Assembly (NCBI RefSeq): GCF_024580145.1
Contig: NZ_JANINI010000008.1
Location: 1-64,000, forward strand
DNA length: 64,000 nt
Origin: Methyloversatilis sp. XJ19-49
Lineage (GTDB): Bacteria; Pseudomonadota; Gammaproteobacteria; Burkholderiales; Rhodocyclaceae
Reading direction: 5' to 3'
Shown: in pieces, positions 15,553 through 38,256 of the stretch
How positions within the stretch are numbered: the stretch's first letter is position 1
Layout of the letters: every line of letters begins with the position of its first letter
Position numbers and translations under genes: made by a program
Notes under the pieces: generated by a model
Told to the model about the DNA's origin: nothing
Databases searched by the model: none
Seen by the model: only the letters and a program-made list of their open reading frames with translations

Positions 15553-16249
15553 CGTCTCCTACTCCTTTGGTCTGTGGTTCAGGATCAAACGAAAGATCGG
15601 CGTCCGGTGAAATCCGTCAGCGGGGAAGGCTTCTGCATTCCGCCATGGCCGATGTCTGACTGAAGGACGACGTGTGTCGCCCGCGACCTCCCTACATGTC
15701 CGCCTCCCGGACCGGGGGCGGACTATGCGGCGTTGCGCTGTCATGACGGCGAGGTCGTTGCCGTCCGCCAGCCTTGCATGGGGTGGGTGTCCTGCACTGG
15801 ACGAGATTCGTGGCGCACTGCGCGCGGTGACGTGTGGTACGGCAAGGAACGCGGCACGCGGCCCCACGCTGACACGGCATCGCTCTGGATCGGGAATCTC
15901 GTACATGCATTCTGAAACCGGAATATTCATGTGTCGCACCGGCTTGCTGTTCGCGGATGCGGTCATCGGGCACGCCCCGAAAAGGGTGCCGTCGCCGCGA
16001 GGGCGCCGCACCGCTTTCGACAGGGTTTTCGACAGACCTAAGATTTAGCATCGGATTCCTTAGTGTGCAACCTGTTCCTCGGTTGACCGCGTTCTTTGCG
16101 GCACCCGGCGACATGCAGCCGCTGCGCAGGCGGTTGCAGGCATTCATCATTGATGCCACCTCTACGGCATGCGCGTTCATCCGGATGCAATCGGTCGGCT
16201 GAAAGTCGAACCCCGGACTGATGGCGACGGATGATTTCCGGACTGCCCA
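15553..16249. other. Intergenic region between DUF1329 copy 1 and the CoA-transferase operon
   Basis: Part of an 880-base gap without a supported gene. It must hold the minus-strand promoter of DUF1329 copy 1, but I could not find a convincing -24/-12 or -35/-10 pair there. Two copies of CCGGACTG (about 16213 and 16238) begin a cluster of CCGGAC-type sites that continues toward the CoA-transferase promoter. Several open frames here lack ribosome binding sites and look like high-GC noise. Confidence 0.5.
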
Positions 16250-16280
16250 CCGTCCGGACAGGTCGTCACCGTTCGGACGC
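16250..16280 (+). promoter_or_regulatory. Putative activator sites upstream of the CoA-transferase operon
   Basis: CCGTCCGGACAG (16250-16261) and CCGTTCGGACGC (16269-16280) are near-copies of the perfect palindrome CCGTCCGGACGG found upstream of acxA. They lie about 65-90 bases before the -24 element, a normal distance for binding sites of sigma-54 activators. Assignment to the AcxR-type activator of this locus is inference. Confidence 0.5.
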
Positions 16281-16341
16281 ACGTGTATTTTAGATTCAAA
16301 AACAAGGGCTTGTGATGAGTGCGCTGCAGCATGCCTGCGCA

Positions 16342-16356
16342 GGCACAGGCTTTGCT
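16342..16356 (+). promoter_or_regulatory. Sigma-54 (-24/-12) promoter of the CoA-transferase operon
   Basis: GGCAC-N5-TTGCT matches the sigma-54 consensus (GG and GC ten bases apart). It lies 79 bases before the scoA start. The element AAAAACAA-N4-TTGTG (16298-16314) starts exactly 44 bases before the GGCAC, the same spacing as at the acxA promoter. Confidence 0.75.
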
Positions 16357-16434
16357 GGCCGCTACTGCTGGTCGGCGGCACACCGACACGGAGTGTTGCG
16401 ACCAAAAGTGCGTGCAGGCACAAGGAGGAGGCAG

Positions 16435-17133
16435 ATGAAAAAGCTTTACCCGGACGCGGTCACCGCGCTCAAGGGATTGATCACCGACGGCCATACGCTT
16501 GCCGTGGGCGGTTTCGGTCTGTGCGGCATTCCGGAACTGCTGATCAACGCCGTGGCAGACAGCGGCGTGAAAAATCTGACGGTGATCAGCAACAACGCGG
16601 GCATCGATGGCGTGGGTCTCGGGCGATTGCTCGGCAACCGTCAGGTGCATCGCATGATCGCTTCATACGTCGGCGAGAACGAGGAGTTCGAGCGTCAGCT
16701 GCTGTCCGGCGAACTGGAGGTCGAACTGACGCCCCAGGGCAGTCTGGCCGAGAAGCTGCGCGCCGGCGGCGCCGGCATTCCGGCGTTCTACACGCGTACC
16801 GGTGTCGGTACGCCGGTGGCGGACGGCAAGGAAACGCGCGAGTTCGGCGGTCAGCGCTATCTGCTCGAACATGCCCTGCGCGCCGACGTGTCGCTGGTCA
16901 AGGCGTGGAAGGCCGACGAATCGGGCAACCTGATCTACCGCAAGACCGCGCGCAACTTCAATCCGATGGTGGCGACGGCAGGCAAGGTAACGGTGGTCGA
17001 GGTCGAGGAACTCGTGCCGACCGGCGCGCTGGATCCGGATCAGATCCACACGCCCGGCATCTTCGTGCATCGCATCATCGTGAATACCGCACCGCTGAAG
17101 CGCATCGAAAAACTCACCACAAGGCAGCAATGA
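16435..17133 (+). CDS. scoA: 3-oxoacid (acetoacetate) CoA-transferase, subunit A
   Basis: A 232-residue family I CoA-transferase alpha subunit. The N-terminus carries the conserved Gly-Gly-Phe-Gly-Leu-Cys-Gly-Ile-Pro motif of the CoA-binding region. The length matches ScoA/AtoD-type subunits (about 230). The ATG at 16435 is preceded by AAGGAGGAGG; an upstream in-frame ATG at 16312 falls on the promoter side and is not used. It begins a six-gene operon and scoB follows one base after its stop. The pair moves CoA from succinyl-CoA or acetyl-CoA to acetoacetate, which fits the nearby acetone carboxylase. The CoA donor cannot be told from sequence. Confidence 0.9.
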
Positions 17134-17134
17134 C

Positions 17135-17782
17135 ATGGCCTGGACACGAGACGACATGGCGCGCCGCGCCGCGCGCGAGCTGAAAGACGGCTATTACGTT
17201 AATCTGGGCATCGGCATGCCCACGCTGGTGGCCAACCACATTCCGGAGGGCATGGATGTCTGGCTGCAGTCGGAAAACGGCCTGCTCGGCATCGGCCCCT
17301 TTCCGCTAGAAGGCGAAGTCGACGCCGACCTGATCAATGCCGGCAAGCAGACGGTCAGCACCATCCCCGGCAGCAGCTTCTTCAGCAGCGCCGATTCTTT
17401 CGGCATGATCCGCGGCGGGCACATCAATCTGGCCATCCTGGGTGCGATGCAGGTCAGCGAACACGGTGACCTGGCGAACTGGATGATTCCGGGCAAGCTG
17501 GTCAAGGGCATGGGCGGCGCGATGGATCTGGTGGCCGGTGTGCAGCGCGTGATCGTGCTGATGGACCACTGCAGCAAGGCGGGCGAACACAAGATTCTGA
17601 AGAACTGCGATCTGCCCCTGACCGGCGTCGGGGTGGTCAACATGATCATTTCCGATCTGTGCGTGCTCGTCGTGACGCCGGACGGACTGGAACTGCGCGA
17701 ACTCGCGCCGGGCGTCAGCCTGGAAGAGGTGCAGGAAAAGACCGGCGCTCCGATCCACACCGCGCCTGTGGTGATGCGATGA
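17135..17782 (+). CDS. scoB: 3-oxoacid (acetoacetate) CoA-transferase, subunit B
   Basis: A 215-residue beta subunit of the same enzyme. The catalytic glutamate lies in the Ser-Glu-Asn-Gly-Leu-Leu-Gly motif at about residue 47, and Gly-Ile-Gly-Met-Pro-Thr near residue 28 is the usual family signature. The length is typical of ScoB. Its stop overlaps the next start (ATGA at 17779-17782), indicating translational coupling with the MerR-like gene. Cytoplasmic; forms acetoacetyl-CoA for the thiolase encoded further downstream. Confidence 0.9.
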
Positions 17783-18216
17783 AACCGGCGGCCGCTTCAA
17801 CGAAGTCGGCCGCGCGGCCCGCCGATGCGGGGCGCACCCTCAGCCGCGAACAGCTGGTCGAAGGCTATGGCCTGCCGCTGAGCCGCTTCGGTGTGTTCGA
17901 AGCGCTCGGAATCATCGTGCCCGAGGGCGACGATGGCTTCCGCTGCGACGACGACGACCGTCTGATCATCGCTGCCGCTGCCGTGCAGCTCGGTTTCGAC
18001 GAACGCGAATTGGGCGAGTTGATGGAGCTTTACGACAACACGACCCCGCAGGATCGCGCCTTGCCGCGTTTCATGAAGCTGCTTGCGAGTTACCAGCGCC
18101 TGATGGCTTGGCGGCATCCGGAAGGCTGTGACCCCGACACGCTGGCGAGCCTGGCGCGTCGGCCCTTCCGCGCTGAACAGTTCGGTTTCGGTGAGTCGGG
18201 AAAGGGCCGGGCGTGA
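17779..18216 (+). CDS. Small MerR-like/CbpM-like helical protein
   Basis: A 145-residue protein. Residues about 20-85 resemble a MerR-type winged helix (Leu-Ser-Arg-Glu-Gln-Leu, then Glu-Ala-Leu-Gly-Ile, then Phe-Arg-Cys-Asp-Asp-Asp-Asp and Leu-Gly-Phe-Asp-Glu-Arg-Glu-Leu). The Arg-Tyr-Tyr-Glu of true MerR proteins is missing (Arg-Phe-Gly-Val-Phe-Glu instead). A helical C-terminal part of about 50 residues follows. It overlaps scoB by ATGA and the peroxiredoxin start by GTGA, so it is translated as part of the operon. It could be a diverged regulator or a CbpM-like adaptor; I do not recognise a specific family. Confidence 0.55.
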
Positions 18217-18809
18217 GTGCGCTGGTCGGGCGTAGCGCCCCTGAATTCACTGAGAGCGCGGTCTGGCCCGACAACGAATTCCGGCCGTTTCGCCTCGCCG
18301 ACTACAGGGGGCGGTATGTGGTGCTGTTCTTCTACCCGCTCGACTTCACTTACGTCTGTCCGTCGGAGCTGATTGCGTTCGAACATCGCATGGCCGAGTT
18401 CTCGCGGCGTCAGGTGGATGTGGTCGGGTGTTCGATCGACTCGACCTTCTCACATCTTGCGTGGAAGAAGACGCCGCGGGAGGAGGGCGGAGTCGGTCAG
18501 CTCAGCTATCCGCTGATCGGCGACGTGACCCACTCGGTTGTTCGGGCCTTCGACGTCGAAGGCCCGACCGGCGTGGCATTGCGCGCCACCTTCCTGATCG
18601 ACAGGGAAGGCATCGTGCAGCACCAGATCGTCAACAGTCTCGCCATCGGGCGGGACATCGATGAACTTCTGCGCGTCATCGATGCACTGCAGTACACCGA
18701 ACGTAACGGTGAAGTGTGTCCGGCCGGCTGGCAGAAGGGCAGGGTCGGCGTAATGCCGACTGACCGCGGTGTGGCCAAATACCTCGCCGAACATTCGGAC
18801 ATGTTGTGA
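18213..18809 (+). CDS. 2-Cys peroxiredoxin (AhpC/Prx1 type)
   Basis: A 198-residue AhpC/TSA-family peroxidase. The peroxidatic cysteine is C49 in Phe-Thr-Tyr-Val-Cys-Pro-Ser-Glu, and the resolving cysteine is C169 in Glu-Val-Cys-Pro-Ala-Gly-Trp, both in standard positions. It reduces hydrogen peroxide and organic hydroperoxides in the cytoplasm. The GTG at 18213 overlaps the stop of the preceding gene. No AhpF-like reductase is in the window. Its place inside a CoA-transferase operon is unusual and may reflect oxidative or carbonyl stress during growth on the inducing substrate (inference). Confidence 0.92.
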   Translation: MSALVGRSAPEFTESAVWPDNEFRPFRLADYRGRYVVLFFYPLDFTYVCPSELIAFEHRMAEFSRRQVDVVGCSIDSTFSHLAWKKTPREEGGVGQLSYPLIGDVTHSVVRAFDVEGPTGVALRATFLIDREGIVQHQIVNSLAIGRDIDELLRVIDALQYTERNGEVCPAGWQKGRVGVMPTDRGVAKYLAEHSDML

Positions 18810-18829
18810 CAACAAGGAGGATTGCCCCG

Positions 18830-19459
18830 ATGAAACTGTACGACTGGCATGCAGCACCCAATCCGAAGCGCGCCCGCATGTGCATTGCGGAAAAGGGACT
18901 CGACATCGAAATCATCGAAGTCGGTGGTGACGACCTGAAGCTGCGCCCCGACTACATCGCGAAGTTTCCGCAGGCCATGGTGCCGATGCTGGAACTCGAT
19001 GACGGCCGCCAACTGGGTGAATCGATTGCCATCGCGCGCTATATCGATGAGATGTACCCGTCACCCCCGATGTTCGGCCGCAATGCGTATGAGCGTGGCG
19101 TCGTCGAAATGTGGGAGCGCCGTGCGTTCGACGAAGGCATGATGGCTGCCGGCGAGGTGTTCCGTAACACGCACGAAGCCTTCATCGACCGCGGTCTGCC
19201 CGGCTTTGCCGTGCCGGTGCCGCAGATTCCCGCGCTGGTCGATCGCGGCCGCATGCGCCTGGAACTGTTCTTCCGGAAGTTCGACGAGCAACTCGCCAAC
19301 AACCGCTTCATTGCGGGGGACATGTTCTCGATCGCCGACTGCACGCTGTTCTGCAGCGTCGAATTTGCCTTCTGGTCCGACATCAAGATTCCGGCCGATT
19401 GCAGGAACCTGCAGCGCTGGTTCGACGAAGTCAGCGCCCGTCCGAGCGCCAAGGCCTGA
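18830..19459 (+). CDS. Glutathione S-transferase family protein 1
   Basis: A 209-residue GST with an N-terminal thioredoxin-like domain (start Met-Lys-Leu-Tyr-Asp-Trp, Val-Pro-Met-Leu with the cis-Pro, Gly-Glu-Ser-Ile-Ala-Ile-Ala for the glutathione gamma-glutamyl site) and an all-helical C-terminal domain (Ser-Ile-Ala-Asp-Cys-Thr). The ATG at 18830 follows AAGGAGG; an upstream in-frame start at 18806 is inside the end of the peroxiredoxin gene and less likely. It probably conjugates or isomerises electrophiles; the substrate is unknown. Confidence 0.88.
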   Translation: MKLYDWHAAPNPKRARMCIAEKGLDIEIIEVGGDDLKLRPDYIAKFPQAMVPMLELDDGRQLGESIAIARYIDEMYPSPPMFGRNAYERGVVEMWERRAFDEGMMAAGEVFRNTHEAFIDRGLPGFAVPVPQIPALVDRGRMRLELFFRKFDEQLANNRFIAGDMFSIADCTLFCSVEFAFWSDIKIPADCRNLQRWFDEVSARPSAKA

Positions 19460-19487
19460 TCCGGCTGACGATTCAGGGGACGCGCAG

Positions 19488-20141
19488 GTGATAGATCTTT
19501 ACACCGCACCGACACCGGAAGGATGGAAGGTGTCGATCGCGCTCGAAGAGTTGCGCCTCCCCTACATCGTGCATCCCGTCGACGCCTGCAGCGATCCGCA
19601 GCTTGCGCCGGATTTTCTGCGCATCCGCCCGTGCGGTTGCGTGCCGGCCATCGTTGATCGCACAGCCGGTGATCAAGCGGTGATCGAGTCACGGGCCATC
19701 CTGCTTTATCTGGCGGAAAAGACCGGACGCCTGATGCCCCGCGACGAAGCCGGTCGCGCCCGGGTCGAGCAATGGCTCGCCACGGATTTCGCCAACCCGG
19801 TATCCGGCGGCGTTTCCGTCGTGACACGACGCGTCACATCCGACCCGGCCGGCAAGGGCGGCGCCTCACGAAGCGAACTGCGCGTGCTGTTCGCCCGCCT
19901 TGATGCGCAACTGCAGGCAGACGAATACCTCGCCGGGGATTTCAGCATCGCCGATATCGCCCAGTGGGCGTGCGTGCGCATGCATGCCTGGTCCGGCATC
20001 GACATGACGCCCTATCGCGCGCTGGCGCGCTGGATCGAAAAGATATCCGCGCGCGAAGCATGTCGCCGCGGTGTCTCCGTGCCGCGACCGTTCGAACCGG
20101 CCGAGCAGGTCTATCGCGTCAAGTCCATCCTCTTGCGCTGA
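19488..20141 (+). CDS. Glutathione S-transferase family protein 2
   Basis: A 217-residue GST-like protein starting at GTG 19488 (AGGGGA upstream), 28 bases after GST 1. The N-terminal domain shows Thr-Ala-Pro-Thr-Pro-Glu-Gly-Trp-Lys-Val, Cys-Val-Pro-Ala-Ile-Val and Glu-Ser-Arg-Ala-Ile-Leu. The C-terminal domain has Phe-Ser-Ile-Ala-Asp-Ile-Ala. The Thr-Pro-Glu-Gly-Trp-Lys segment resembles the Ure2p/YfcG-like GSTs (disulfide-bond oxidoreductase type). It is the last gene of the sigma-54 operon; I see no clear terminator after it. Confidence 0.82.
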   Translation: MIDLYTAPTPEGWKVSIALEELRLPYIVHPVDACSDPQLAPDFLRIRPCGCVPAIVDRTAGDQAVIESRAILLYLAEKTGRLMPRDEAGRARVEQWLATDFANPVSGGVSVVTRRVTSDPAGKGGASRSELRVLFARLDAQLQADEYLAGDFSIADIAQWACVRMHAWSGIDMTPYRALARWIEKISAREACRRGVSVPRPFEPAEQVYRVKSILLR

Positions 20142-20256
20142 GCACGCGCATCCGGACTTCCATCCGGCGCTTTTCCGGCGGCTCGCGAAGCCCGGACTGC
20201 CTGGCGGAAGTGCCCGCGTTTTCGCCCCCTGCCTGCCCAGCAGAACACCCTTCGAA

Positions 20257-20270
20257 TGAACGTTCGTTCA
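20257..20270. promoter_or_regulatory. TetR-type operator candidate upstream of acxABC
   Basis: TGAACG-N2-CGTTCA is a perfect inverted repeat of a kind bound by TetR-family regulators of acyl/fatty acid metabolism. It lies about 330 bases before the acxA sigma-54 promoter and just after the GST 2 gene. No TetR gene is visible in the window. Confidence 0.4.
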
Positions 20271-20376
20271 ATCATTTGGATAAGCATCGAGCGTACGGTC
20301 ATGTCGGCCGCATCGCGTTGCCAAGATGACCCATTCCGCGCCCTTGGCGTCGGCAAGCCGTTTCAAGCGATTTGAC

Positions 20377-20393
20377 ATGTTGCGTCGCAACAT
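20377..20393. promoter_or_regulatory. 17-base palindrome upstream of acxABC
   Basis: ATGTTGCG-T-CGCAACAT is a perfect inverted repeat 200 bases before the -24 element. The position and size fit an enhancer-like site for the sigma-54 activator, or an operator for another regulator. No second perfect copy was found near the CoA-transferase promoter. Confidence 0.45.
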
Positions 20394-20426
20394 CCGCCTG
20401 CGGCCGAAAGTGCTTCGTTCTGCATG

Positions 20427-20499
20427 CGTCCGGACGGACTGTCCGACCGACAGACGGTCCGCTTCAAGCAAGCCGTCCGAATTCCATCCGTCCGGACGG
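20427..20499 (+). promoter_or_regulatory. Putative activator (AcxR) sites upstream of acxABC
   Basis: CGTCCGGACG (20427-20436) and the perfect 12-base palindrome CCGTCCGGACGG (20488-20499) lie about 160 and 97 bases before the -24 element, with further CCGTCCGA and GACGGTCC half-sites between. Near-copies precede the CoA-transferase promoter, so both may be targets of the same activator. Confidence 0.55.
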
Positions 20500-20589
20500 T
20501 CGTACGGTTCAGGGTGCTTGTGACCCACCTTGAACTTTAGTGTTTTAAAAACAAATGGTTGTGCTTGTTTTGCGTGATCGAATGCACGC

Positions 20590-20605
20590 TGGCACTGTCC
20601 TTGCA
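20590..20605 (+). promoter_or_regulatory. Sigma-54 (-24/-12) promoter of acxABC
   Basis: TGGCAC-N5-TTGCA is a perfect consensus sigma-54 promoter, about 100 bases before acxA. The block AAAAACAA-N4-TTGTG (20547-20563) starts 44 bases before the GGCAC, exactly as at 16298-16314. The rest of the 560-base gap after the GST gene holds the palindromes listed separately and no supported gene. Confidence 0.88.
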
Positions 20606-20707
20606 GAGCATCAGTGTTCGATTGCACGACGGTCGATCAATAAAGGCCGGTCCGTCCGGGCGGGCCGGAAGCAAACACAGGCAGGTTAATTAAATGGAGA
20701 CGTGGAG

Positions 20708-22855
20708 ATGACGATCGAAAACTCGTCGGTTCAGGTGCTGGGGATTGACGCAGGCGGCACCATGACTGACACCTTTTTTGTCCGTGCTGACGGCCGCTTC
20801 GTGGTCGGCAAAGCACAAAGCAATCCCGGGGACGAATCCCTGGCGATCTACAACTCTTCGGTCGATGCATTGGCGCATTGGGGCCGCGAAGTTGACGATG
20901 TGTATCCGGAGCTGGTGACCTGCGTGTATTCGGGCACCGCCATGCTGAACCGTGTTCTGCAGCGCAAGGGCCTCGATGTCGGCCTGATCTGCAACAAGGG
21001 TTTCGAGCAGGTCCACTCGATGGGTCGCGCACTGCAGAGCTACCTCGGCTACGCCCTCGAAGACCGTATTCACCTGAACACGCACCGTTACGACGAACCG
21101 CTGGTTCCGATCTCGCGCACCCGTGGTGTGACCGAGCGTACCGACGTTCAGGGCAAGATCGTTATCCCGCTGCGGGTTGAAGAAGTCCGTCAGGCCACGC
21201 GTGAGCTGGTAGAAGCGGGTTCCAAGGCCATCGTGATCTGCCTGCTTCAGTCGCACAAGAACGAAGACAGCGAAAAGCTGGCTCGCGACGCCTGCAAGGA
21301 AGAGCTGAAGAAACTCGGTGCCGACATTCCGGTTTTCGCTTCGGTGGATTACTACCCGCAGCGCAAGGAAAGTCACCGCATGAACACCACGATTCTGGAA
21401 GCCTACGGCGCAGAACCGTCGCGTGCGACCCTGAAGCTGGTGAGCGACCGTTTCAAGAAGCACGGTGCCAAGTTCGACCTGCGCGTGATGGCTACGCACG
21501 GCGGCACGATCAGCTGGAAGGCCAAGGAACTGGCCCGTACCATCGTGTCCGGCCCGATCGGCGGCGTGATCGGTTCGAAGATGCTTGGCGAGTGCCTGGG
21601 TGACGAAAACATCGCGTGCTCGGACATCGGTGGTACGTCGTTCGACGTGGCTCTGATCACCAAGGGCTCGTTCGCGATCAAGTCCGATCCGGACATGGCG
21701 CGTCTCGTGCTGTCGCTGCCGCTGGTGGCGATGGACTCGGTCGGTGCCGGTGCAGGTTCGTTCGTTCGTATCGATCCGTACTCGAAGTCGATCAAGCTGG
21801 GCCCGGACAGCGCCGGTTACCGTGTCGGCACCTGCTGGCCGGAAAGCGGTCTGGACACGGTTTCGGTGTCGGACTGCCACGTTGTGCTGGGTTACCTGAA
21901 CCCGAACAACTTCCTCGGCGGCCTGATCAAGCTCGACGTTCAGCGCGCACGTGACCACATCAAGGCACAGATCGCTGACCCGCTGGGCCTGTCGGTCGAA
22001 GACGCCGCTGCCGGCGTGATCGAACTGCTTGACCTGACGCTGTCGGAATACCTGCGTGCGAACATCAGCGCCCGCGGTTACAACCCGACGGAATTCACCT
22101 GCTTCTCGTATGGCGGCGCCGGCCCGGTTCACACCTACGGCTACACCGCAGGCGTGGGCTTCAAGGACGTCGTCGTTCCGGCATGGGCCGCTGGCTTCTC
22201 AGCCTTCGGTTGCGCCTGCGCAGACTTCGAATACCGCTACGACAAGTCGGTTGACCTGGCTGTACCGCAGCATGGCACCGACGCAGCCAAGATCGCCGCT
22301 TGCGAAATCCTGCAGAGCGCCTGGGCCGAACTGGCTGCCAAGGTGGTCGAAGAGTTCGTCATCAATGGCTACAAGCCGGAAGACGTGCTGCTGATCCCGG
22401 GTTACAAGATGCAATACACGGGTCAGCTGAACGACCTCGAAATCATTTCCCCGATCACCAATGCATCGACTGCAGCGGACTGGGACAAGATTGTCGAAGC
22501 GTTCGAAACCACCTACGGTCGCGTGTATGCCAATTCGGCTCGTTCGCCGGAACTGGGCAATTCGGCTACCGGCGCGATCATGCGCGGTACCGTCGTGACG
22601 CAGAAGCCGGTGCTGCCGGAAGATCCGGATGGTGGCCCGACGCCGCCGGCCGAAGCTTTCCTCGGTACGCGTCCGTTCTACCGTCACAAGAAGTGGGTCG
22701 ATGCGAAGCTGTACAAGATGGAATTGCTGAAGGCCGGCAACCACATCGTCGGACCCGCGATCATCGAATCGGACGCTACCACGTTCGTCGTGCCGAATGG
22801 TTTCGAGACCACGGTCGACAAGCATCGCCTGTTCCATCTCAAAGAAGTCAAGTGA
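20708..22855 (+). CDS. acxA: Acetone carboxylase beta subunit (HyuA-like)
   Basis: A 715-residue hydantoinase A/oxoprolinase-family protein, the size of AcxA. The N-terminus carries the ATP-binding signature Asp-Ala-Gly-Gly-Thr-Met-Thr-Asp (residues 14-21), and a second one is Asp-Ile-Gly-Gly-Thr-Ser-Phe-Asp at about residue 308. In acetone carboxylase this subunit takes part in ATP-driven phosphorylation of acetone and bicarbonate (MgATP to AMP and two Pi), giving acetoacetate. The ATG at 20708 has GGAG 8 bases upstream; GTG 20702 is a less likely start. acxB follows after 12 bases and acxC after that, so the three-subunit order is intact. Codon use is strongly biased, with many CGT and GGT codons, fitting high expression. 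Confidence 0.93.
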   Translation: MTIENSSVQVLGIDAGGTMTDTFFVRADGRFVVGKAQSNPGDESLAIYNSSVDALAHWGREVDDVYPELVTCVYSGTAMLNRVLQRKGLDVGLICNKGFEQVHSMGRALQSYLGYALEDRIHLNTHRYDEPLVPISRTRGVTERTDVQGKIVIPLRVEEVRQATRELVEAGSKAIVICLLQSHKNEDSEKLARDACKEELKKLGADIPVFASVDYYPQRKESHRMNTTILEAYGAEPSRATLKLVSDRFKKHGAKFDLRVMATHGGTISWKAKELARTIVSGPIGGVIGSKMLGECLGDENIACSDIGGTSFDVALITKGSFAIKSDPDMARLVLSLPLVAMDSVGAGAGSFVRIDPYSKSIKLGPDSAGYRVGTCWPESGLDTVSVSDCHVVLGYLNPNNFLGGLIKLDVQRARDHIKAQIADPLGLSVEDAAAGVIELLDLTLSEYLRANISARGYNPTEFTCFSYGGAGPVHTYGYTAGVGFKDVVVPAWAAGFSAFGCACADFEYRYDKSVDLAVPQHGTDAAKIAACEILQSAWAELAAKVVEEFVINGYKPEDVLLIPGYKMQYTGQLNDLEIISPITNASTAADWDKIVEAFETTYGRVYANSARSPELGNSATGAIMRGTVVTQKPVLPEDPDGGPTPPAEAFLGTRPFYRHKKWVDAKLYKMELLKAGNHIVGPAIIESDATTFVVPNGFETTVDKHRLFHLKEVK

Positions 22856-22867
22856 GGAGAAACAATT

Positions 22868-25192
22868 ATGAATATGCTCAGCAACACTGAAACCGGTTTT
22901 GCCGATCTGCTGAAGAACGGCCAGACGTTGTCCCAGTTCCGCGCCGGCATCATGGAGCGCACCGCAGCAACCGGCTGCTACAACGGACTGGAAACCCTCG
23001 AGCTGCGCGAACGCGATCCGATCGGCTACGAGAAGCTGTTCTCGAAGCTGCGCGGCGGCCTGGTTCACGCTCGTGAAACCGCCAAGAAGATTGCCGCCAG
23101 CCCGATCGTCGAGCAGGAAGGTGAACTGTGCTTCACGCTCTACAACGCGGTCGGCGACTGCGTTCTGACCTCGACCGGCATCATCATCCACGTCGGCACG
23201 ATGGGCGCTGCGATCAAGTACATGATCGAGAACAACTGGGAAGCCAATCCCGGTATCGCCCCGGGTGACATGTTCACCAACAATGACTGCGCCATCGGCA
23301 ACGTCCACCCGTGCGACATCGCGACCATCGTCCCGATCTTCCACGACGGCCGTCTGATCGGCTGGGTGGGTGGTGTGACGCACGTGATCGACACCGGTGC
23401 CGTGACGCCGGGTTCGATGTCGACGGGCCAGACCTCGCGTTTCGGCGACGGCTACATGATCACCTGCCGCAAGACCGGTGTGAATGACACCCCGCTGCGT
23501 GACTGGCTGCATGAGTCGCAGCGTTCGGTGCGTACGCCGAAGTACTGGATCCTCGACGAAAAGACCCGTATCGCCGGCTGCCACATGATCCGCGAACTGG
23601 TTGAAGAAGTGATCGCTGCCGACGGCATCGAAGCGTACGAAAAGTTCGCCTACGAAGTTATCGAAGAAGGTCGTCGCGGCCTGATGATGCGTATCAAGGA
23701 CATGACGATCCCGGGCGTTTACCGCAAGGTCGCTTTCGTCGATGTGCCGTACGCACACGAGGACATCGGTGTGTCGAGCAAGTTTGCCAAGCTTGATTCG
23801 ATCATGCACTCGCCGTGCAAGATGACGATCAAGGAGAACGGCAAGTGGCGCCTCGACTTCGAAGGTGCGAGCCGTTGGGGCTGGCATACCTTCAACGCCC
23901 ACCAGGTCGCTTTCACCAGCGGCATCTGGGTGATGATGTGCCAGACGCTCGTTCCGACGCAGCGTATCAATGACGGTGCCTACTACGCCACCGAGTTCCA
24001 CCTGCCGAAGGGCGCATGGTGCAACCCGGATGACCGCCGCACCGGCCACGCTTACGCATGGCACTTCCTGGTGTCGGGTTGGTCGGCTCTGTGGCGCGGT
24101 CTGTCGCAGGCTTACTTCAGCCGCGGCTACCTCGAAGAAGTCAATGCCGGCAACGCCAACACGTCGAACTGGCTGCAAGGTGGCGGTATCAACCAGGACG
24201 GCGAGATCCACGCGGTCAACAGCTTCGAAGCTTCGTCGTGCGGCACCGGTGCCTGCGCAGTCAAGGACGGTCTGAACCACGCTGCCGCCATCTGGAATCC
24301 GGAAGGCGACATGGGCGACATCGAAATCTGGGAAATGGCAGAACCCCTGCTGTACCTGGGTCGCAATGTCAAGGCCAACTCCGGCGGCTACGGCAAGTAC
24401 CGTGGTGGCTGCGGCTTCGAAACCCTGCGCATGGTCTGGAATTCGCAGGATTGGTCGATGTTCTTCATGGGCAACGGCTACATGAACAGCGACTGGGGTC
24501 TGATGGGTGGTTACCCGTCGGCAACCGGCTACCGTTTCGAAGCCCACAACACGGGCCTCGAGCGTCGCATCGCCAACGGCGAAGCGATCCCGCTGGGCGC
24601 CGATCTGGATCCGGGCCTGAACATTTACGAGCAAAGCATCGATGCAACGTCGCTCGTGAAGCGCGACAAGCAGTGCATGACCACGGAAGACTGCTACGCC
24701 AACCACGATCTGTACCTGAACTACCTGCGTGGTGGCCCGGGCTTCGGCGATCCGCTGGATCGTGACGTGAAGTCGATCGAGAAGGACCTGAACGAGCTGT
24801 TCCTTCTGCCCGAATTCGCTGCCAAGGTCTACGCGGCCGTCGTTACGCAGAATGCCAAGGGTGTCTACACGGTTGATGCTGCAAAGACCGCTGCCCGCCG
24901 CGCCGAATTCCGCAAGGAACGTATCGCACGCTCGGTGCCGACCCGTGAGTGGATGAAGGAAGAGCGTGCCCGCATCATCAACAAGCACGCTTCCACGCCG
25001 GTTCAGCACATGTTCGCAACCAGCTTCGCGCTGTCGGAAAAGTTCAAGAACGAATTCAAGACGTTCTGGAGCCTGCCCGCCGACTGGGACGTGCTGGAAA
25101 CCGAGCTGGGTGTTCCGTCGTACGGGTCCAAGTTCCGTATGGACCTGTCGTTGATGCCGGACGTCCGTACCATCGTCCAGGTCGAAGAATAA
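22868..25192 (+). CDS. acxB: Acetone carboxylase alpha subunit (HyuB-like)
   Basis: A 774-residue hydantoinase B/oxoprolinase-family protein, matching the length of the AcxB alpha subunit (about 775). Family landmarks include the Asn-Asp-Cys-Ala-Ile-Gly-Asn-Val-His motif at about residue 139 and the Gly-Gly-Gly-Ile-Asn-Gln-Asp segment near residue 438. It forms the catalytic alpha2-beta2-gamma2 complex with AcxA and AcxC and contributes to the metal site. GAGGAG precedes the ATG. Cytoplasmic, expressed from the sigma-54 promoter upstream of acxA. Confidence 0.93.
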   Translation: MNMLSNTETGFADLLKNGQTLSQFRAGIMERTAATGCYNGLETLELRERDPIGYEKLFSKLRGGLVHARETAKKIAASPIVEQEGELCFTLYNAVGDCVLTSTGIIIHVGTMGAAIKYMIENNWEANPGIAPGDMFTNNDCAIGNVHPCDIATIVPIFHDGRLIGWVGGVTHVIDTGAVTPGSMSTGQTSRFGDGYMITCRKTGVNDTPLRDWLHESQRSVRTPKYWILDEKTRIAGCHMIRELVEEVIAADGIEAYEKFAYEVIEEGRRGLMMRIKDMTIPGVYRKVAFVDVPYAHEDIGVSSKFAKLDSIMHSPCKMTIKENGKWRLDFEGASRWGWHTFNAHQVAFTSGIWVMMCQTLVPTQRINDGAYYATEFHLPKGAWCNPDDRRTGHAYAWHFLVSGWSALWRGLSQAYFSRGYLEEVNAGNANTSNWLQGGGINQDGEIHAVNSFEASSCGTGACAVKDGLNHAAAIWNPEGDMGDIEIWEMAEPLLYLGRNVKANSGGYGKYRGGCGFETLRMVWNSQDWSMFFMGNGYMNSDWGLMGGYPSATGYRFEAHNTGLERRIANGEAIPLGADLDPGLNIYEQSIDATSLVKRDKQCMTTEDCYANHDLYLNYLRGGPGFGDPLDRDVKSIEKDLNELFLLPEFAAKVYAAVVTQNAKGVYTVDAAKTAARRAEFRKERIARSVPTREWMKEERARIINKHASTPVQHMFATSFALSEKFKNEFKTFWSLPADWDVLETELGVPSYGSKFRMDLSLMPDVRTIVQVEE

Positions 25193-25230: not shown

Positions 25231-25737
25231 ATGTCGACTTACAACAAAGAGCAAGTAGCACACCTGGCCGCGGGCACCCTCGACTGGGATACGACGTTCC
25301 GCATGCTGTCGATGCCGAAGGACAAGGCACGCTTCGGCATGTACGTGGAAGCACTGCAGGCGAAGGTGACGTTTCCGGATCGCATCGTCCTTCCGCTGGG
25401 CCCGCATCTGTACATCGTGCAGTCGGCCAAGAACAAGCAGTGGATCGTCAAGTGCGATTGTGGCCACGAGTTCTGCGGCTACAAGGAAAACTGGAAGCTG
25501 TTCGCCAACATCTACGTGCGCGACACGCCAGAAGCGATGGCCGACGTGTATCCGGCGCTGATGGCTCCGGACACGAAGTGGCAGGTCTATCGTGAGTACT
25601 ACTGCCCGAGCTGCGGCACGATGCACGACGTCGAAGCTCCGACCCCGTGGTACCCGGTGATCCATGACTTCGAGCCGGACATCGAAACGTTCTACAAGGA
25701 GTGGGTGGGCTTGCCCGTACCCGAACGCGCCGCCTAA
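25231..25737 (+). CDS. acxC: Acetone carboxylase gamma subunit
   Basis: A 168-residue protein, the exact usual size of AcxC. Two cysteine clusters are visible: C75, C77, C82 (Cys-Asp-Cys-Gly-His-Glu-Phe-Cys) and C125/C128 (Cys-Pro-Ser-Cys-Gly), consistent with the zinc site known in the gamma subunit. AGGAG lies 6 bases before the ATG. It completes the acetone carboxylase operon; the next gene is separated by 211 bases that hold two hairpins. Confidence 0.93.
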   Translation: MSTYNKEQVAHLAAGTLDWDTTFRMLSMPKDKARFGMYVEALQAKVTFPDRIVLPLGPHLYIVQSAKNKQWIVKCDCGHEFCGYKENWKLFANIYVRDTPEAMADVYPALMAPDTKWQVYREYYCPSCGTMHDVEAPTPWYPVIHDFEPDIETFYKEWVGLPVPERAA

Positions 25738-25948: not shown

Positions 25949-26956
25949 ATGCAACAGGCAAGAGACTCTGGCGGTGGTGTTCAGAAGATACTGAGCATCA
26001 TTACTCAATTACTCCCGATCATCATTATTGGCGGTTTGCTTTACGCCGGCTTCTTCGTGAAGGCGGAAGCAGTCATCACCAAGGTTGAACCGAAGCCGAT
26101 CGAACGGCGCGACAACTTCTTCAGCATCATTACCCCCACCGAGCAGATTGCCTGGGCAGCGGGTACGGCCGGCAAGATCGTCCGTTCCGACGATGGCGGA
26201 AAGACCTGGCTCCGACAGCCCACTCCCACGCTTGTGAATCTTCAGGGCATCGCAGCCTGGGATGCACAGACCGCGGTCGCAGCGGGCAACGAAGGCACGA
26301 TCCTGCATACCAACGATGGCGGTGCGAGCTGGAAGCTTGCAAACACTCCCAAGTCCGAAAATCCCAACAAGCTGTTCCGTGTTCGCGTATTCGGTGACAC
26401 GGCGTGGGCCGTTGGCGAATTTTCCGGGCTCTACAAATCCACCGACAAGGGTGCCAACTGGACGCGGCTGCTTCCGGAAGACGACCGTGCGCTGAACGCC
26501 ATCTACTTCGTCGGGCAGTCCGGCTGGGCGGTGGGTGAAGTCGGCTCGATCATGCGTACCGAAGACGGTGGTGAAACGTGGACGCCAGTCGAGACAGAGA
26601 ATCAGTCCAGTCTGATGGCGGTCACCTTCCGCGATGCGACACACGGGGTTGCCGTGGGCTTGACCGGGACGCTGCTTGTGACCGACGACGCCGGTGTGAC
26701 CTGGCGCGTGGTGCCGGGTCTGACGCGCGAGCACCTGCTTGATGTCATCTGGGATGAGAACAACTGGATTGCAGTCGGCGACAAGGGCGTGAAGGTCACC
26801 TCGAACGCGGATGCGACCGAATGGACTGCCGGGCGTCTTGCTGAAGGTGATGTTGCGTGGCGCACCCAGATCGTCCGGGCTGGCTCGAAGTATTTCGTTG
26901 CCGGCGCAAATCTCGGAATTCTCGAGGACGGGAAGATCACCGTCGTCGGTCGATAG
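25949..26956 (+). CDS. YCF48/BNR-repeat protein
   Basis: A 335-residue protein with an N-terminal membrane anchor or uncleaved signal (about residues 12-34, Ile/Leu-rich) followed by about six beta-propeller blades. Each blade has a Gly-X-X-Gly-X-Ile/Val-X-X-(Ser/Thr)-Asp-Asp-Gly-Gly-X-X-Trp pattern, as in the photosystem II assembly factor Ycf48/HCF136. In proteobacteria such proteins occur next to HAE3/MMPL, DUF1302 and DUF1329 genes, the arrangement found here, and are thought to support that envelope system. AAGGAG precedes the ATG. Its job is not known biochemically. Confidence 0.88.
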   Translation: MQQARDSGGGVQKILSIITQLLPIIIIGGLLYAGFFVKAEAVITKVEPKPIERRDNFFSIITPTEQIAWAAGTAGKIVRSDDGGKTWLRQPTPTLVNLQGIAAWDAQTAVAAGNEGTILHTNDGGASWKLANTPKSENPNKLFRVRVFGDTAWAVGEFSGLYKSTDKGANWTRLLPEDDRALNAIYFVGQSGWAVGEVGSIMRTEDGGETWTPVETENQSSLMAVTFRDATHGVAVGLTGTLLVTDDAGVTWRVVPGLTREHLLDVIWDENNWIAVGDKGVKVTSNADATEWTAGRLAEGDVAWRTQIVRAGSKYFVAGANLGILEDGKITVVGR

Positions 26957-26973
26957 CAGGCAAGGAGAATCGC

Positions 26974-29376
26974 GTGAAAAATACTACTTTCAGCAAGGTC
27001 GAACATGCGTTCGCATTGCTGATCAAGAATCGCATGCTGGTTGTACTCGCGGTCCTGATTGCAACGGTCGTTATGGCCTACCTCGCTTCGTTCGTCGAAG
27101 TGAAGACAGTCTTCAGCGATCTGCTTCCGAAAAACCACCCCTACGTCGAGGTCAATCAGAAATTCAAGTCCACCTTCGGCGGATCGAACATGGTCAGCAT
27201 CATGGTCGAAGTCGAGGACGGAGACATTTTCAAGAAGGAAGTGCTTGAAAAAGTACAGAAACTGACGGTCGGTCTCCAGCAGGTCGATGCAGTCGATACC
27301 TACCAGATCGTTTCCATCGCATCCAAGAAGACAAAGGAAGTCCGGGCATCCACTGAAGGGGTCGAGTCACGCCCGATCATGTGGCCGCGCCTGCCTGCGG
27401 ATGACAAGGAGATGGCCATTCTGCGCGAGGCAGTGTTGAACAACCCGCTGATCTATGGACCGTATGTGTCCATCGATCTGAAGGCTACGCTGATCACGGC
27501 TGACTTCCTTGATACGGAAATCAACTACAGCAAGGCCTTCGATCAGATCATGGGTCTGATCAAGGAAGCGGAGGGCGATGGTGTGCTCGTTCGAGTCGTC
27601 GGCGAGCCGGTGCTGTATGGCTGGGTGAACTTCTACCTCGACGAAACGATCCAGATCTTCTTCGCTGCCATCGCATCGCTCGTCCTGATCCTGCTGCTGA
27701 TCACGCGTACCGTGCATGGCACGATCATTCCGTTGATCGCCGCCATCATCAGCGCCTGCTGGGCGCTCGGTGCTGCAAAGCTGATGGGCTTCCACCTCGA
27801 TCCGCTGGTCATTGTGGTGGCCTTCCTGATCACGGCGCAGGCGATCTCGAACTCTGTGCAGCTCATTTCGCGCTTCGACGATGAAATCGCGCACGGAACT
27901 GCCAAAGCGTCCGACGCAGCGGTGGCGAGTGCGAAGCACCTGTTCAAGCCCAGTCTGCTTGCGATCGTCGCTGACGCGGGTTGCGTGCTGGTGGTTGCGC
28001 TGACCCCGATTCCGATGCTCGAGAAGATTTCCTACATCGGTACCGTCTGGATCTTCGCGATTTTCATCGGCGCGCTGATCATGACGCCCGTATTGCTGTC
28101 GTGGTTCAACCCGCGCAAGAACGCCGACGGATCGTACAGCCACCGCTTCGTTCATCCGATCAATATCCGTCCGGTATTGATGGTCATTCTCAACCTCGCG
28201 TCCAGCATCGTGGTCACGAAGGCGCGCTTCGTTGTTCTCGGCGTGGCGCTGGCGGTGTTTGCGGTGTCCTTCTGGTACTCGTTCAACCTGAAGGTGGGCG
28301 ACGCGAATCCGGGCTCGCCGATTCTCTGGCCGGACTCGCAGTACAACACCGATGCGGCTGACATCAACCGCCAGTTCCAGGGCTCGGACCGCATGTTCGT
28401 CGTGGTCGCAGGCAAGGAAAAGGGTTCTTTGCGCGAGCCGGAGGTGCTGCAGAGCATGGCCAACTTCCAGCGCTACATGGAAGCCCAGCCTGAAGTTGGC
28501 GGCAGCATTTCGCTCGCTGACATCCTGCCGCAGGTGCGTCGCGTGCTGCGCGAAGGCAATCCGATGTACGGAGAGCTTGGCAATGATGCGGGTGAGAACG
28601 GCGAGCTGACCTACATGTTCGTGTCGGGCTCCGACCCGGGTGACATGGATCGCTACGCCGACAGTGATGCGCTGAACGGGGCTGTGACGCTGTTCTTCCG
28701 CGATCACCAGGGCGAAACGATCCGTACCGCTGTGGCACGTGTGCAGGACTACGTGAAGCAGAACCCGATCGAGAACGCCGAATACCTGCTCGCGGGCGGT
28801 CTGGTCGGTGTGCTGGCCGCGGTGAATGAAGTGATTCTCGCGGGCCAGATCGAAGCCATCGCGCTGGCGCTGCTCGTGCTGGTCGTGTGTTGCACCGTGA
28901 CCTTCCACTCGATGGTCGCCGGCGTTTTCTTCATGATTCCGGTGATGCTGTCGAACACGATCACGTTCAGCTACATGGCCTACAACGAAATCGGCATGAA
29001 CATCAATACCTTGCCTGTCGTGGCACTGGGTATCGGTCTGGGGGTGGATTACACCTTCTACATCGTCGATGGCATCCGCGAAGAGCTGCACCTGCATGAC
29101 AACGTCGAGAAGGCCATCCTGAACTGTCTGACCAGCCAGGGACGTGGCGTGTTGCTGACGGCACTGACGCTGATTACCAGCGTGGGTCTGTGGAGCTTCT
29201 CGTCGCTCAGGCTTCAGGCAGACATGGGCCTGCTGATTGCTCTGTGGCTCTTCATTTCGGCCTTCAGCGCGCTGTTCATCATGCCGGCAATCGTATATGT
29301 GTTCCGCCCCACGTTCGTCGTGGGGAGCAAAGAGCGCCCGATCGAGCGCGCCGAGGGATCTGCAGTAGTTGTGTGA
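26974..29376 (+). CDS. HAE3-type RND/MMPL transporter
   Basis: An 800-residue inner-membrane protein with two repeats. Each has a transmembrane helix, a large periplasmic loop and five further helices. The first repeat starts with the helix at about residues 20-40 and its helix bundle lies at about residues 220-400; the second bundle lies at about residues 630-790. The short loops and length fit the HAE3/MMPL branch of the RND superfamily, relatives of hopanoid and lipid transporters, rather than three-component drug pumps. GTG 26974 is the start because AAGGAG lies 6 bases upstream. It follows the YCF48 gene by 17 bases. It probably moves a hydrophobic compound between inner membrane and periplasm; substrate unknown. 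Confidence 0.88.
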   Translation: MKNTTFSKVEHAFALLIKNRMLVVLAVLIATVVMAYLASFVEVKTVFSDLLPKNHPYVEVNQKFKSTFGGSNMVSIMVEVEDGDIFKKEVLEKVQKLTVGLQQVDAVDTYQIVSIASKKTKEVRASTEGVESRPIMWPRLPADDKEMAILREAVLNNPLIYGPYVSIDLKATLITADFLDTEINYSKAFDQIMGLIKEAEGDGVLVRVVGEPVLYGWVNFYLDETIQIFFAAIASLVLILLLITRTVHGTIIPLIAAIISACWALGAAKLMGFHLDPLVIVVAFLITAQAISNSVQLISRFDDEIAHGTAKASDAAVASAKHLFKPSLLAIVADAGCVLVVALTPIPMLEKISYIGTVWIFAIFIGALIMTPVLLSWFNPRKNADGSYSHRFVHPINIRPVLMVILNLASSIVVTKARFVVLGVALAVFAVSFWYSFNLKVGDANPGSPILWPDSQYNTDAADINRQFQGSDRMFVVVAGKEKGSLREPEVLQSMANFQRYMEAQPEVGGSISLADILPQVRRVLREGNPMYGELGNDAGENGELTYMFVSGSDPGDMDRYADSDALNGAVTLFFRDHQGETIRTAVARVQDYVKQNPIENAEYLLAGGLVGVLAAVNEVILAGQIEAIALALLVLVVCCTVTFHSMVAGVFFMIPVMLSNTITFSYMAYNEIGMNINTLPVVALGIGLGVDYTFYIVDGIREELHLHDNVEKAILNCLTSQGRGVLLTALTLITSVGLWSFSSLRLQADMGLLIALWLFISAFSALFIMPAIVYVFRPTFVVGSKERPIERAEGSAVVV

Positions 29377-29389
29377 GGGTCGCTTGCCT

Positions 29390-29415
29390 CGCCCGGCATC
29401 ACACGATGCCGGGCG
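29390..29415 (+). terminator. Intercistronic hairpin between the transporter and DUF1302 genes
   Basis: A perfect 11-base-pair GC-rich stem with loop ACAC, without a following T run, lies in the 85-base gap. It may adjust the amount of DUF1302/DUF1329 mRNA relative to the transporter. Confidence 0.55.
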
Positions 29416-29461
29416 TGAGCAGATGGCTCATGGGTAGTGCCAAAACGGAGGGAATGGAGAC

Positions 29462-31096: not shown

Positions 31097-31112
31097 TCAA
31101 AGGAAAGAAGAC

Positions 31113-36201: not shown

Positions 36202-38256
36202 ATGGATGTAAGGGACGACGATCAAAGCCAGATGTTTTCCCGCCCCGAGCGTGACCGGGACGTCATGAAACACTGGGAGCGAGTGCTCAACGGTGAAGAG
36301 TGCAGTTCCGATGCTCTGCGCCGACTGATCGACGATTCCTGGCGCCGTTGTCTTAACGCGCACGTTGATCCAGGCAAGTACCAGGCCCCGCCTCCCCTGA
36401 GCGAGAACTCGCTCTATTCCCTGCAGCAAAAACACGGCGATCTGCTTAGCGCAAGCACGCCGGTCATGGCGATGGCACGCGACTTCCTCGCTGAAACCGG
36501 CACCATCATGGTGCTCACCGACCACAGCGGTACCATCCTCAGCCTCGAAGGCGATCATGCAACGCGCGAAGAAGGCGAAAGCATGAACATGACGCCCGGC
36601 GCAAGCTGGAGCGAAACCGCCTGTGGCACGAACGCAATCGGTACGGCAATCGCCGTACGTCATCCGGTGCAGATCCATTCAGCTGAGCATTACTGCGCCG
36701 GTATCAAGCGCTGGACATGTTCGTCGACCGTCATTCTTGATCCCTACGACAGTTCAGTACTGGGTGCCATCGACGTGTCCGGATTGCACCAGACCTACAA
36801 CCGTCACAGCCTCGCGCTGGTGGTGGCGACTGCCAGCAAGATCGAGGGTCGTCTGGCCAAGCATGAAATGGGTATCCGTTTCCGTCTGCTTGAGCGCTGC
36901 ATGCACCGACTGACGCATTCCAGTGGCGACGGCGTCGTGGTGTTCGATCGCCGCGGCAATCCGGTCAAGACCAACGAGCGGGCAGAAGAGGCGCTCAATC
37001 AACTCGCGGTTGGCCGTATCGGCTCGCGCAGGCTCGATATTGCGTCTATCTCGCTCGGCCATGCCACCGATGACGGACTGCCTGCCGGTTTGCAGGGCTG
37101 GATTGCACCCGAATGGCTGGAACCCGTATTCGACAATGGCCAGCGCATCGGAACCTTGCTGACGATTCCGATCTTCCGGCCTCGCGCGGCTCACAGCAGC
37201 GCCGCGCCCCTGGTGGCGGAGAGTGCCGCACAGGAGCCGAGCAAACTTGACTGCGTCGTGGGCAAGGATCCGGCGCTGGTCGAATCAGTCGAGCGTGCGC
37301 GTCAATTGTCCAAGTCGAATGTTCCGGTGCTGCTGCTCGGCGAAACCGGTGTCGGCAAAGAGGTGTTTGCCAAAGGCATCCACGATTGCGGCAGCGCGAA
37401 GTCGGCACCTTTCGTCGTCGTCAATTGCGGCGGCCTGTCGCGCGAGTTGCTTGCGACGGAATTGTTCGGCTACGCGGAAGGCTCTTTCACCGGCGCACGA
37501 CGCGGCGGCATGATGGGCAAGATCGAAGCAGCCAACGGCGGCACGCTGTTTCTGGACGAATTGGGCGAAATGCCGCTCGACATGCAGCCGCACCTGCTGC
37601 GCGTGCTCGAAGAGGGTGAAATCTACCGACTCGGCGAGAATGCGGCCCGCAAGGTCAAGTTCCGGCTCATCACCGCGACGAACCGTGACCTGCGCAAGGA
37701 GGTGACCGACGGTCGATTCCGCATGGATCTTTACTACCGCGTCGCCGTGACGAGTATCCGCATCCCGCCGCTGCGTGACCGTCTGAGCGACATTCCGGTG
37801 CTGTCTCGTGCGCTGCTCGAAAAACTCGCGCTGCATCATGGTTTGCCGGCCCCGCAACTGAGTGCAGGCGACCTTGGTGACCTGTCGTCCTACTCGTGGC
37901 CTGGCAATGTGCGGGAACTTCGCAATGTGCTGGAATCGATGCTGCTGACGGGAGAACGTCCGCGCGCGATCATCCACACCGATGATCCGCAGGTTCGCGG
38001 CATTCGTCCGTTTGATGCGCCGATGCATGGCGGAGAGCAGCACATGTTCGGCATCGGCGAAGTGCGCGACAGCCGGCGCCTTGAAGAAGCCGAGCGGGAA
38101 GCCATCCTGAGCGCAATTGACGGCAGTCACGGAAACATGGCGCTGGCCGCGCGTTCGCTCGGCATCGCCAAGAGCACGCTCTATCTGAAACTGAAGAAGT
38201 TCGGGCTGGATGCGCTGGTTGAACGGGCCCGCGAGGTGCACGCCAAAGGCCATTGA
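36202..38256 (+). CDS. acxR: Sigma-54-dependent activator of the AcoR/AcxR type
   Basis: A 684-residue regulator. The N-terminal part has a GAF-like sensor with the Ala-Cys-Gly-Thr-Asn-Ala-Ile-Gly signature (about residue 139) typical of AcoR/AcxR. The AAA+ domain has Walker A Gly-Glu-Thr-Gly-Val-Gly-Lys (about 380), the sigma-54 contact loop as Gly-Ser-Phe-Thr-Gly-Ala (about 427; Ser in place of the more common Ala) and Walker B Leu-Phe-Leu-Asp-Glu (about 450). A Fis-type helix-turn-helix lies at about 641-671. The ATG at 36202 has a perfect AAGGAGGT. It is the obvious partner of the two sigma-54 promoters at 16342 and 20590. The effector is likely acetone or a related ketone/alcohol (inference from neighbours). 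The 240-base gap before it shows no clear promoter. Confidence 0.88.
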   Translation: MDVRDDDQSQMFSRPERDRDVMKHWERVLNGEECSSDALRRLIDDSWRRCLNAHVDPGKYQAPPPLSENSLYSLQQKHGDLLSASTPVMAMARDFLAETGTIMVLTDHSGTILSLEGDHATREEGESMNMTPGASWSETACGTNAIGTAIAVRHPVQIHSAEHYCAGIKRWTCSSTVILDPYDSSVLGAIDVSGLHQTYNRHSLALVVATASKIEGRLAKHEMGIRFRLLERCMHRLTHSSGDGVVVFDRRGNPVKTNERAEEALNQLAVGRIGSRRLDIASISLGHATDDGLPAGLQGWIAPEWLEPVFDNGQRIGTLLTIPIFRPRAAHSSAAPLVAESAAQEPSKLDCVVGKDPALVESVERARQLSKSNVPVLLLGETGVGKEVFAKGIHDCGSAKSAPFVVVNCGGLSRELLATELFGYAEGSFTGARRGGMMGKIEAANGGTLFLDELGEMPLDMQPHLLRVLEEGEIYRLGENAARKVKFRLITATNRDLRKEVTDGRFRMDLYYRVAVTSIRIPPLRDRLSDIPVLSRALLEKLALHHGLPAPQLSAGDLGDLSSYSWPGNVRELRNVLESMLLTGERPRAIIHTDDPQVRGIRPFDAPMHGGEQHMFGIGEVRDSRRLEEAEREAILSAIDGSHGNMALAARSLGIAKSTLYLKLKKFGLDALVERAREVHAKGH

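Follow-up and report, generated by a model that had tools for sequence, protein, structure and literature searches.

Two matched sigma-54-type promoters of a predicted acetone regulon in Methyloversatilis, each with a candidate upstream enhancer motif and a likely site for integration host factor

Two operons lie within the 64,000-base stretch analysed here (the window; positions 1 to 64,000 of contig NZ_JANINI010000008.1 of Methyloversatilis sp. XJ19-49): scoAB, for a 3-oxoacid coenzyme A (CoA)-transferase, and acxABC, for an acetone carboxylase, each headed by an upstream region that joins a sigma-54-type element to a shared block (Table 1). The gene name acx is one which we take to apply here and which agrees with the papers cited below. 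Further downstream on the same strand lies a gene whose product has the GAF, AAA+ and Fis-type helix-turn-helix (HTH) domains of a sigma-54 activator, with the GSFTGA loop present in the translation. The two operons were followed through a set of 13 genomes of the genus, in 11 of which acxA lies at the corresponding locus with 90-100% identity. Judged by the acxA protein, Methyloversatilis records are the closest named relatives, at 98% identity. The other two, G271 and G283, gave no acxA match and possibly lack the gene; in G271, contig C35 breaks off about 4 kb short of the activator. Both were also omitted from the comparison of scoA upstream regions, which used the same 11 genomes: no scoA was matched in G271, and the only scoA of G283 is a more distant one, lacking a sigma-54 element. 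The activator is matched at at least 83% identity in all 13 genomes, with stop codons inside the match in G283 (one) and G070 (two). Outside the genus, 76 acx loci were compared, and since the acx loci inside and outside the genus are related by descent, the conservation counts given below are not independent.

Table 1. Genes, promoter elements and predicted protein-binding sites at the acetone locus, in window coordinates.
Feature	Position	Strand	Remarks
Second, weaker AcxR-type enhancer copy at scoA, CGGCTGAAAGTCGAAC	16196..16211	+	differs from the shared 16-letter motif at one letter
Predicted AcxR enhancer of scoAB, GTCCGGAAATCATCC	16229..16243	-	centre 106 bases before the -24 GG
IHF-type site at scoA, AAACAAGGGCTTG	16300..16312	+	core of block 16298-16314; 1 mismatch to WATCARNNNNTTR
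Sigma-54-type -24/-12 element of scoAB, AGGCACAGGCTTTGCT	16341..16356	+	1 mismatch to TGGCAC-N5-TTGCW
scoA, 3-oxoacid CoA-transferase subunit A	16435..17133	+	TIGR02429, 253.6 bits, cut-off 128.5
scoB, 3-oxoacid CoA-transferase subunit B	17135..17782	+	TIGR02428, 333.3 bits, cut-off 243.55
Possible second activator site at acx, GTCCGACCGACAGAC	20441..20455	+	weak motif match, uncertain
Predicted AcxR enhancer of acxABC, GTCCGAATTCCATCC	20475..20489	+	centre 109 bases before the -24 GG
IHF-type site at acx, AAACAAATGGTTG	20549..20561	+	core of block 20547-20563; 1 mismatch to consensus
Sigma-54-type -24/-12 element of acxABC, TGGCACTGTCCTTGCA	20590..20605	+	0 mismatches to TGGCAC-N5-TTGCW
acxA, acetone carboxylase subunit	20708..22855	+	related carboxylase profiles matched below NCBIfam cut-offs
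acxB-type subunit	22868..25192	+	acetophenone carboxylase delta-type profile, below cut-off; name by operon order
acxC-type small subunit	25231..25737	+	weak acetophenone carboxylase beta profile match; name by operon order
AcxR-type sigma-54 activator	36202..38256	+	Pfam Sigma54_activat, GAF and HTH_8 over cut-offs

The initial annotation had proposed a sigma-54 promoter before each operon, preceded at 44 bases by the block AAAAACAA-N4-TTGTG, and a scan of the window bears this out to the letter: the block is exact at 16298-16314 and at 20547-20563, and the distance from its start to GGCAC-N5-TTGC is 44 bases at both promoters. A third copy with up to two mismatches is absent from the window (shuffles gave a mean of 0.59, and 11 shuffles had at least two), and the 4.1 Mb of the strain's own genome hold no further copy with up to one mismatch (the reversed-pattern control gave one). 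That two unrelated promoters merely resemble each other by chance has in its favour that the sigma-54 pattern, searched alone, is no more frequent in the window than expected (three matches with up to one mismatch, against a mean of 2.2 in shuffles), and the case consequently rests on the composite of elements and on its conservation. The block, however, occurs nowhere else in the genome and is kept in related genomes, which makes such a coincidence extremely improbable.

It is the comparison across the genus that supports both promoters. All 11 genomes retain 10 or 11 of the 11 consensus letters of the acx element, and the element of the scoA near acx keeps GG, GC and at least 9 of 11 letters, again in 11 of 11. 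Together with an RpoN gene in the strain's genome, whose product scores over the profile cut-off, the conserved -24 GG and -12 GC give both elements the sequence characters of sigma-54 (RpoN) promoters, at which transcription of the two operons is predicted to start. Between 16001 and 27000, sigma-70-like sites are at shuffle level (3 versus 2.3), and terminator-like sites are fewer than in shuffles (4 versus 8.4). When block and promoter were searched together in the 13 genus genomes (AAWCAR-N4-TTG, 29 bases, GGCAC-N5-TTGC, with up to two mismatches), 28 matches were returned, against 6 in all for a reversed control whose mismatch numbers are not broken down. All 17 matches with no or one mismatch lie at the acx promoter (11 of the 11 genomes with acxA) or the scoA promoter (6 of 11), as would be expected of a block and spacing under selection, and the remaining 11, each with two mismatches, all fall outside the two promoters. 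The flanking DNA is otherwise different, as had been stated: the two promoter regions are not duplicates of each other, the best blastn match between the two 500-base upstream regions covering 25 bases at 88% (E 0.009) and lying off the block, over CCGTCCGGAC palindromes. What did not hold is the exact lettering of the block, which among the 11 genomes having both promoters is found complete at both in the window's own genome alone; the spacing and a CAR-N4-TTG core in an A/T-rich setting at -42 are what the genus has kept.

This core corresponds to the consensus for integration host factor (IHF), applied here as WATCARNNNNTTR, that is, WATCAR-N4-TTR (PMC7962754). At acx every one of the 11 genomes has an IHF-type site whose first base is exactly 42 bases upstream of the -24 GG; six of these sites are perfect and five carry one mismatch. 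At scoA a site at this position is present in 6 of 11, each with one mismatch and none perfect. Around the 17 genus sites A+T makes up 72% of the 5' flank and 47% of the 3' flank, a bias that is absent at the scoA sites of G257 and G070 and reaches 80% against 40% at the scoA site of the window. IhfA and IhfB are both encoded in the strain's genome, over the NCBIfam cut-offs; an HU-like protein is encoded as well, with a match below the curated cut-off. Because CAR-N4-TTG is kept with an A/T-rich flank before it, IHF, one of the binders suggested initially, is the likely protein at the block. An A for T at the third position (AAACAA) is seen at both sites of G000, G005, G226 and G295 and at the scoA sites of G257 and G070, and its occurrence in a subclade and in these two scoA sites is possibly a parallel tuning of site strength.

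The same kind of site recurs outside the genus. A lax sigma-54 scan, which has no chance estimate, gave a promoter candidate in 80 of 81 loci (80 and the window) and none in L063; the count of IHF sites accordingly used 74 of the 76 loci, without L063 and without L030, which has too little upstream DNA. Within 100 bases of the GG, the perfect consensus was found in 16 of the 74, where dinucleotide shuffles predict 0.32, and a site with up to one mismatch in 36, where they predict 6.0, with none in 74 coding controls in either case; the perfect matches include that of L022, whose promoter candidate at -366 is doubtful. Perfect sites occur in both orientations and are mostly found near -31 and -43 or near -43 and -55, positions separated by roughly one helical turn, and their flanks are likewise unequal in A+T (56% versus 37%, over 14 of the 16 sites, the other two having too little upstream DNA).

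These observations also bear on two other accounts of the block. It might be the palindromic operator of a different regulator, ACAA-N4-TTGT, for both window blocks have this symmetry and the same letters also stand ahead of other sigma-54-like elements in the family, with 21-22 bases between in 13 of 30 loci. Yet the symmetry is gone in relatives, where CAG-N4-TTG (G118, G152, G070) or TCAA-N4-TTGC or TTGA is found, and what persists is the asymmetric IHF consensus with its one-sided A/T-rich flank, so that an operator of this kind appears unlikely. A slightly weaker candidate still is an A/T-rich stretch, UP-element-like or intrinsically bent, that would aid RNA polymerase without IHF: an A-tract and an A/T-rich flank are indeed present, and 5 of the 11 scoA promoters have no consensus site, but the specific letters CAR-N4-TTG are kept at exactly -42, and not A/T content alone, and outside the genus the perfect sites occur on either strand at helical-turn distances.

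Upstream of the IHF-type site lies a second conserved element, which is predicted to be the enhancer of the activator. The initial annotation had assigned this role to a palindrome, CCGTCCGGACGG, and this has to be revised: the GTCCGGAC core is absent at acx in 5 of 11 genomes, whereas the adjacent preceding GTCCGAATTCCATCC is invariant in all 11, and at scoA the conserved sites, at 16196 and 16229, lie upstream of the palindrome. The CCGTCCGGAC palindromes are present at 16250 and 20488 and are not the genus-conserved element. Although it is the best shared stretch of the two window upstream regions, CCGTCCGGACGG was rejected as the activator site for its non-conserved core; it could be an extra site in a subclade. 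The scoA enhancer is a reversed relative of the acx motif; 10 of the 11 genomes have it at the distance seen in the window (G152 with one mismatch), and in G070 it is displaced upstream by 22 bases. The weaker second copy at scoA is kept at its distance in 9 of 11 genomes if up to two mismatches are allowed, the exceptions being G070 and G152. For the possible second site at acx, a GTCCG-N9-CGGTC element was seen by eye in all 11 acx upstream regions. In the strain's genome the combined 15-mer GTCCGRAWWYCRKMC is matched exactly at four places, and its reversed control at none, a count that speaks for specificity and not for discovery, as the 15-mer was derived from the same promoters that it recovers; two of the four are the scoA and acx promoters, and the other two (L180, L181), inside long reading frames, were set aside as chance. 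A degenerate 16-mer allowing up to two mismatches was uninformative genome-wide (578 matches versus 488 in the reversed control).

Outside the genus, 28 of 72 acx promoters have a perfect copy of a palindromic form of the motif, GTYCGRWWWYCGRAC, no more than 250 bases from the GG, and the number rises to 51 of 72 when one mismatch is allowed; shuffles give 0.0 and 0.1 (L030, L063, L069 and L078 were dropped from the 76 for insufficient upstream DNA). The distances from enhancer centre to promoter group about 10 bases apart, near -140, -129, -119, -110 and -100. When near-identical promoters sharing a position were counted once, 42 of the 51 were left, and these gave a Rayleigh length of 0.58 at 10.5 bases, a value that none of 20000 random draws equalled; for distinct positions only, random draws put the probability at 0.013 and the Rayleigh formula at 0.085, so that a preference for helical-turn steps is suggestive. 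The perfect palindrome GTCCGGAWTCCGGAC was found in 11 of 131 sampled family genomes, at 12 places (reversed control: one genome), of which three are before acxA and three more beside an activator homolog, one of them also beside scoA. The conserved dyad (GTCCGRAWWYCRKMC/GTYCGRWWWYCGRAC) is read as a probable AcxR enhancer.

A homolog of the activator itself is present in the fetched stretch at 63 of 80 loci; among the other 17, several are short contigs, and in L003-L006 the stretch ends before the place where the gene is expected. Upstream of acxA, 31 of the 63 are divergent (27 at 41-45% identity and four at 32-34%) and five run in the same direction (48-51%); downstream, 26 run in the same direction (48-54%) and one is reversed (38%), and the activator of the window belongs to the downstream kind. 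Recognition helices of the homologs are much alike, for example ISRSTLYVKL and IAKSTLYEK, and differ in the four most distant. It is this co-occurrence of motif and activator at acx loci that suggests binding of the one by the other. Elsewhere in the strain's genome, contig C1 (17778-33722) carries acxA-like genes of 29% and 26% identity and two activator homologs, one of them 57% identical to that of the window.

Taken together, we consider it probable, at about 0.83, that the two operons form one acetone regulon, each with a sigma-54 promoter served by an AcxR/AcoR-type activator and an IHF bend. The activator would bind the enhancer, whose centre lies some 106-109 bases ahead of the -24 GG, and IHF would occupy the block, from -42 to -30, bending the DNA between enhancer and promoter; the bend would let the activator touch the sigma-54 RNA polymerase and drive ATP-dependent open-complex formation. 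From the acx promoter the cell would thus make the acetone carboxylase, converting acetone to acetoacetate, and from the scoA promoter the CoA-transferase, converting acetoacetate to acetoacetyl-CoA, with the activator presumably switched by an acetone-related ligand. That the operons belong to one regulon, as had been suggested initially, is supported by conservation; for the activator at 36202 as the partner, we infer the link from synteny, because the strain's genome holds 19 matches to it.

That number of possible partners is one of several points that weigh against this regulon model. The sites of the window both read AAACAA, with A at a T position of the IHF consensus, and a scan for the block that finds an IHF-type site at every acx promoter of the genus finds none at 5 of 11 scoA promoters, which retain the enhancer and the sigma-54 element. 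Outside the genus, 38 of 74 acx promoters have no IHF site even with one mismatch, and 21 of 72 have no GTYCGRWWWYCGRAC with up to one mismatch; within the genus the enhancer is asymmetric. Furthermore, 6 of the 12 places of GTCCGGAWTCCGGAC (L186, L187, L188, L189, L193 and L194) have no acxA, scoA or activator homolog within the fetched 3 kb. The motif is therefore not exclusive to acx and may have other users, and our confidence is slightly lowered on this account.

The position of scoA adds an evolutionary side to the argument. Outside the genus, scoA follows the end of the acxC match by 77-187 bases in 17 of 76 loci, presumably in one operon; in this genus the two are 4 kb apart, scoA being the upstream one and having a promoter of its own. 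One locus outside the genus, L025, has scoA arranged as in this genus; there a perfect IHF consensus precedes a weak sigma-54-like element (two mismatches) by 43 bases, and a clear enhancer is missing. A like functional layout on two unrelated sequences suggests that the second promoter was built under selection, leaving the order of events aside. It is tentatively proposed, at somewhat less than even odds, that the scoA promoter is an independently built copy of the whole module of enhancer, bend and promoter, with its spacing selected to helical phase.

Several other features of the locus deserve mention. The cluster includes genes for an AMP-binding enzyme of the acyl-CoA synthetase type, a thiolase, a peroxiredoxin and a glutathione S-transferase, after which a second transferase-like frame was noted by eye. 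After acxC, on the same strand (25949-32426), lie YCF48-like, MMPL transporter, DUF1302 and DUF1329 genes, an export-type cassette in the acetone cluster. Between the predicted start and acxA, a TCGAT(T/C)G...TCGATCA pair (20617-20640) is kept in 11 of 11 genus genomes and could be an operator; a structured RNA in this leader was rejected, its stability not being unusual (z -0.88). Finally, a loose search of the family for ACAA-N4-TTGT, 20-36 bases and GGCNC-N5-TTGC matched 35 of 395 genomes. Several of the loci from it (L083-L112) have ACAA-N4-TTGTTTT ahead of TGGCAC, and those with the 21-22-base gap are perhaps a separate class of sigma-54 promoter with its own activator site. A location upstream of PEP-CTERM genes was also considered for these loci and rejected, as a crude pattern supports it in 1 of 30.

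It is evident that the architecture described here is real and well conserved, and that it is of a known kind with new detail. It would offer a concrete cis-regulatory code for bacterial acetone use, comprising a candidate AcxR enhancer motif, an IHF site at a fixed position and a second operon of the regulon. With the enhancer motif, AcxR regulons of other Betaproteobacteria could be predicted, and the pair of unlike promoters sharing one geometry offers a natural means of testing how tightly sigma-54 activation depends on the position of IHF and on helical phase. Control of acx by sigma-54 and AcxR is already published, and the IHF site, the enhancer motif and the second promoter look like new detail. 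Literature joining integration host factor with acetone carboxylase was not found, and neither an acx enhancer nor IHF at acx is treated in the titles and abstracts covered; as this coverage was partial, with subscription work largely outside it, the novelty of the detail is as firm as that search.

Promoters of the sigma-54 type assisted by IHF are exemplified by Pu and nifH. The order of enhancer, IHF site and -24/-12 promoter is common to these and to the two promoters described here, and the activator and the enhancer sequence differ; a position between enhancer and promoter is the common role of IHF at RpoN promoters, where the usual enhancer distance is 100-140 bp (PMC7962754). Among acetone systems, acxABC is under sigma-54/AcxR control in Xanthobacter autotrophicus (PMC2244623), a sigma-54 promoter lies in the acxRA gap of Cupriavidus metallidurans (PMC2864759), and acxR has been named in Methylobacterium (PMC3621897). 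A sigma-54 promoter before acxABC and an AcxR-type activator are shared with X. autotrophicus Py2 and C. metallidurans CH34 (PMC2244623, PMC2864759). However, acxR of C. metallidurans adjoins acxA in the opposite direction (PMC2864759), whereas the activator gene here starts about 13 kb past the end of acxA. The acetone carboxylase and CoA-transferase genes are co-regulated in Helicobacter pylori as they would be here (PMC2244623), but the H. pylori cluster is reported to be activated by HP1021 and to lie outside the RpoN regulon (PMC2244623), unlike what is proposed for the cluster described here. Compared with Py2 and CH34, the Methyloversatilis locus differs in that scoAB is set 4 kb upstream under a matched promoter of its own, and in the IHF site and enhancer motif proposed for both operons.

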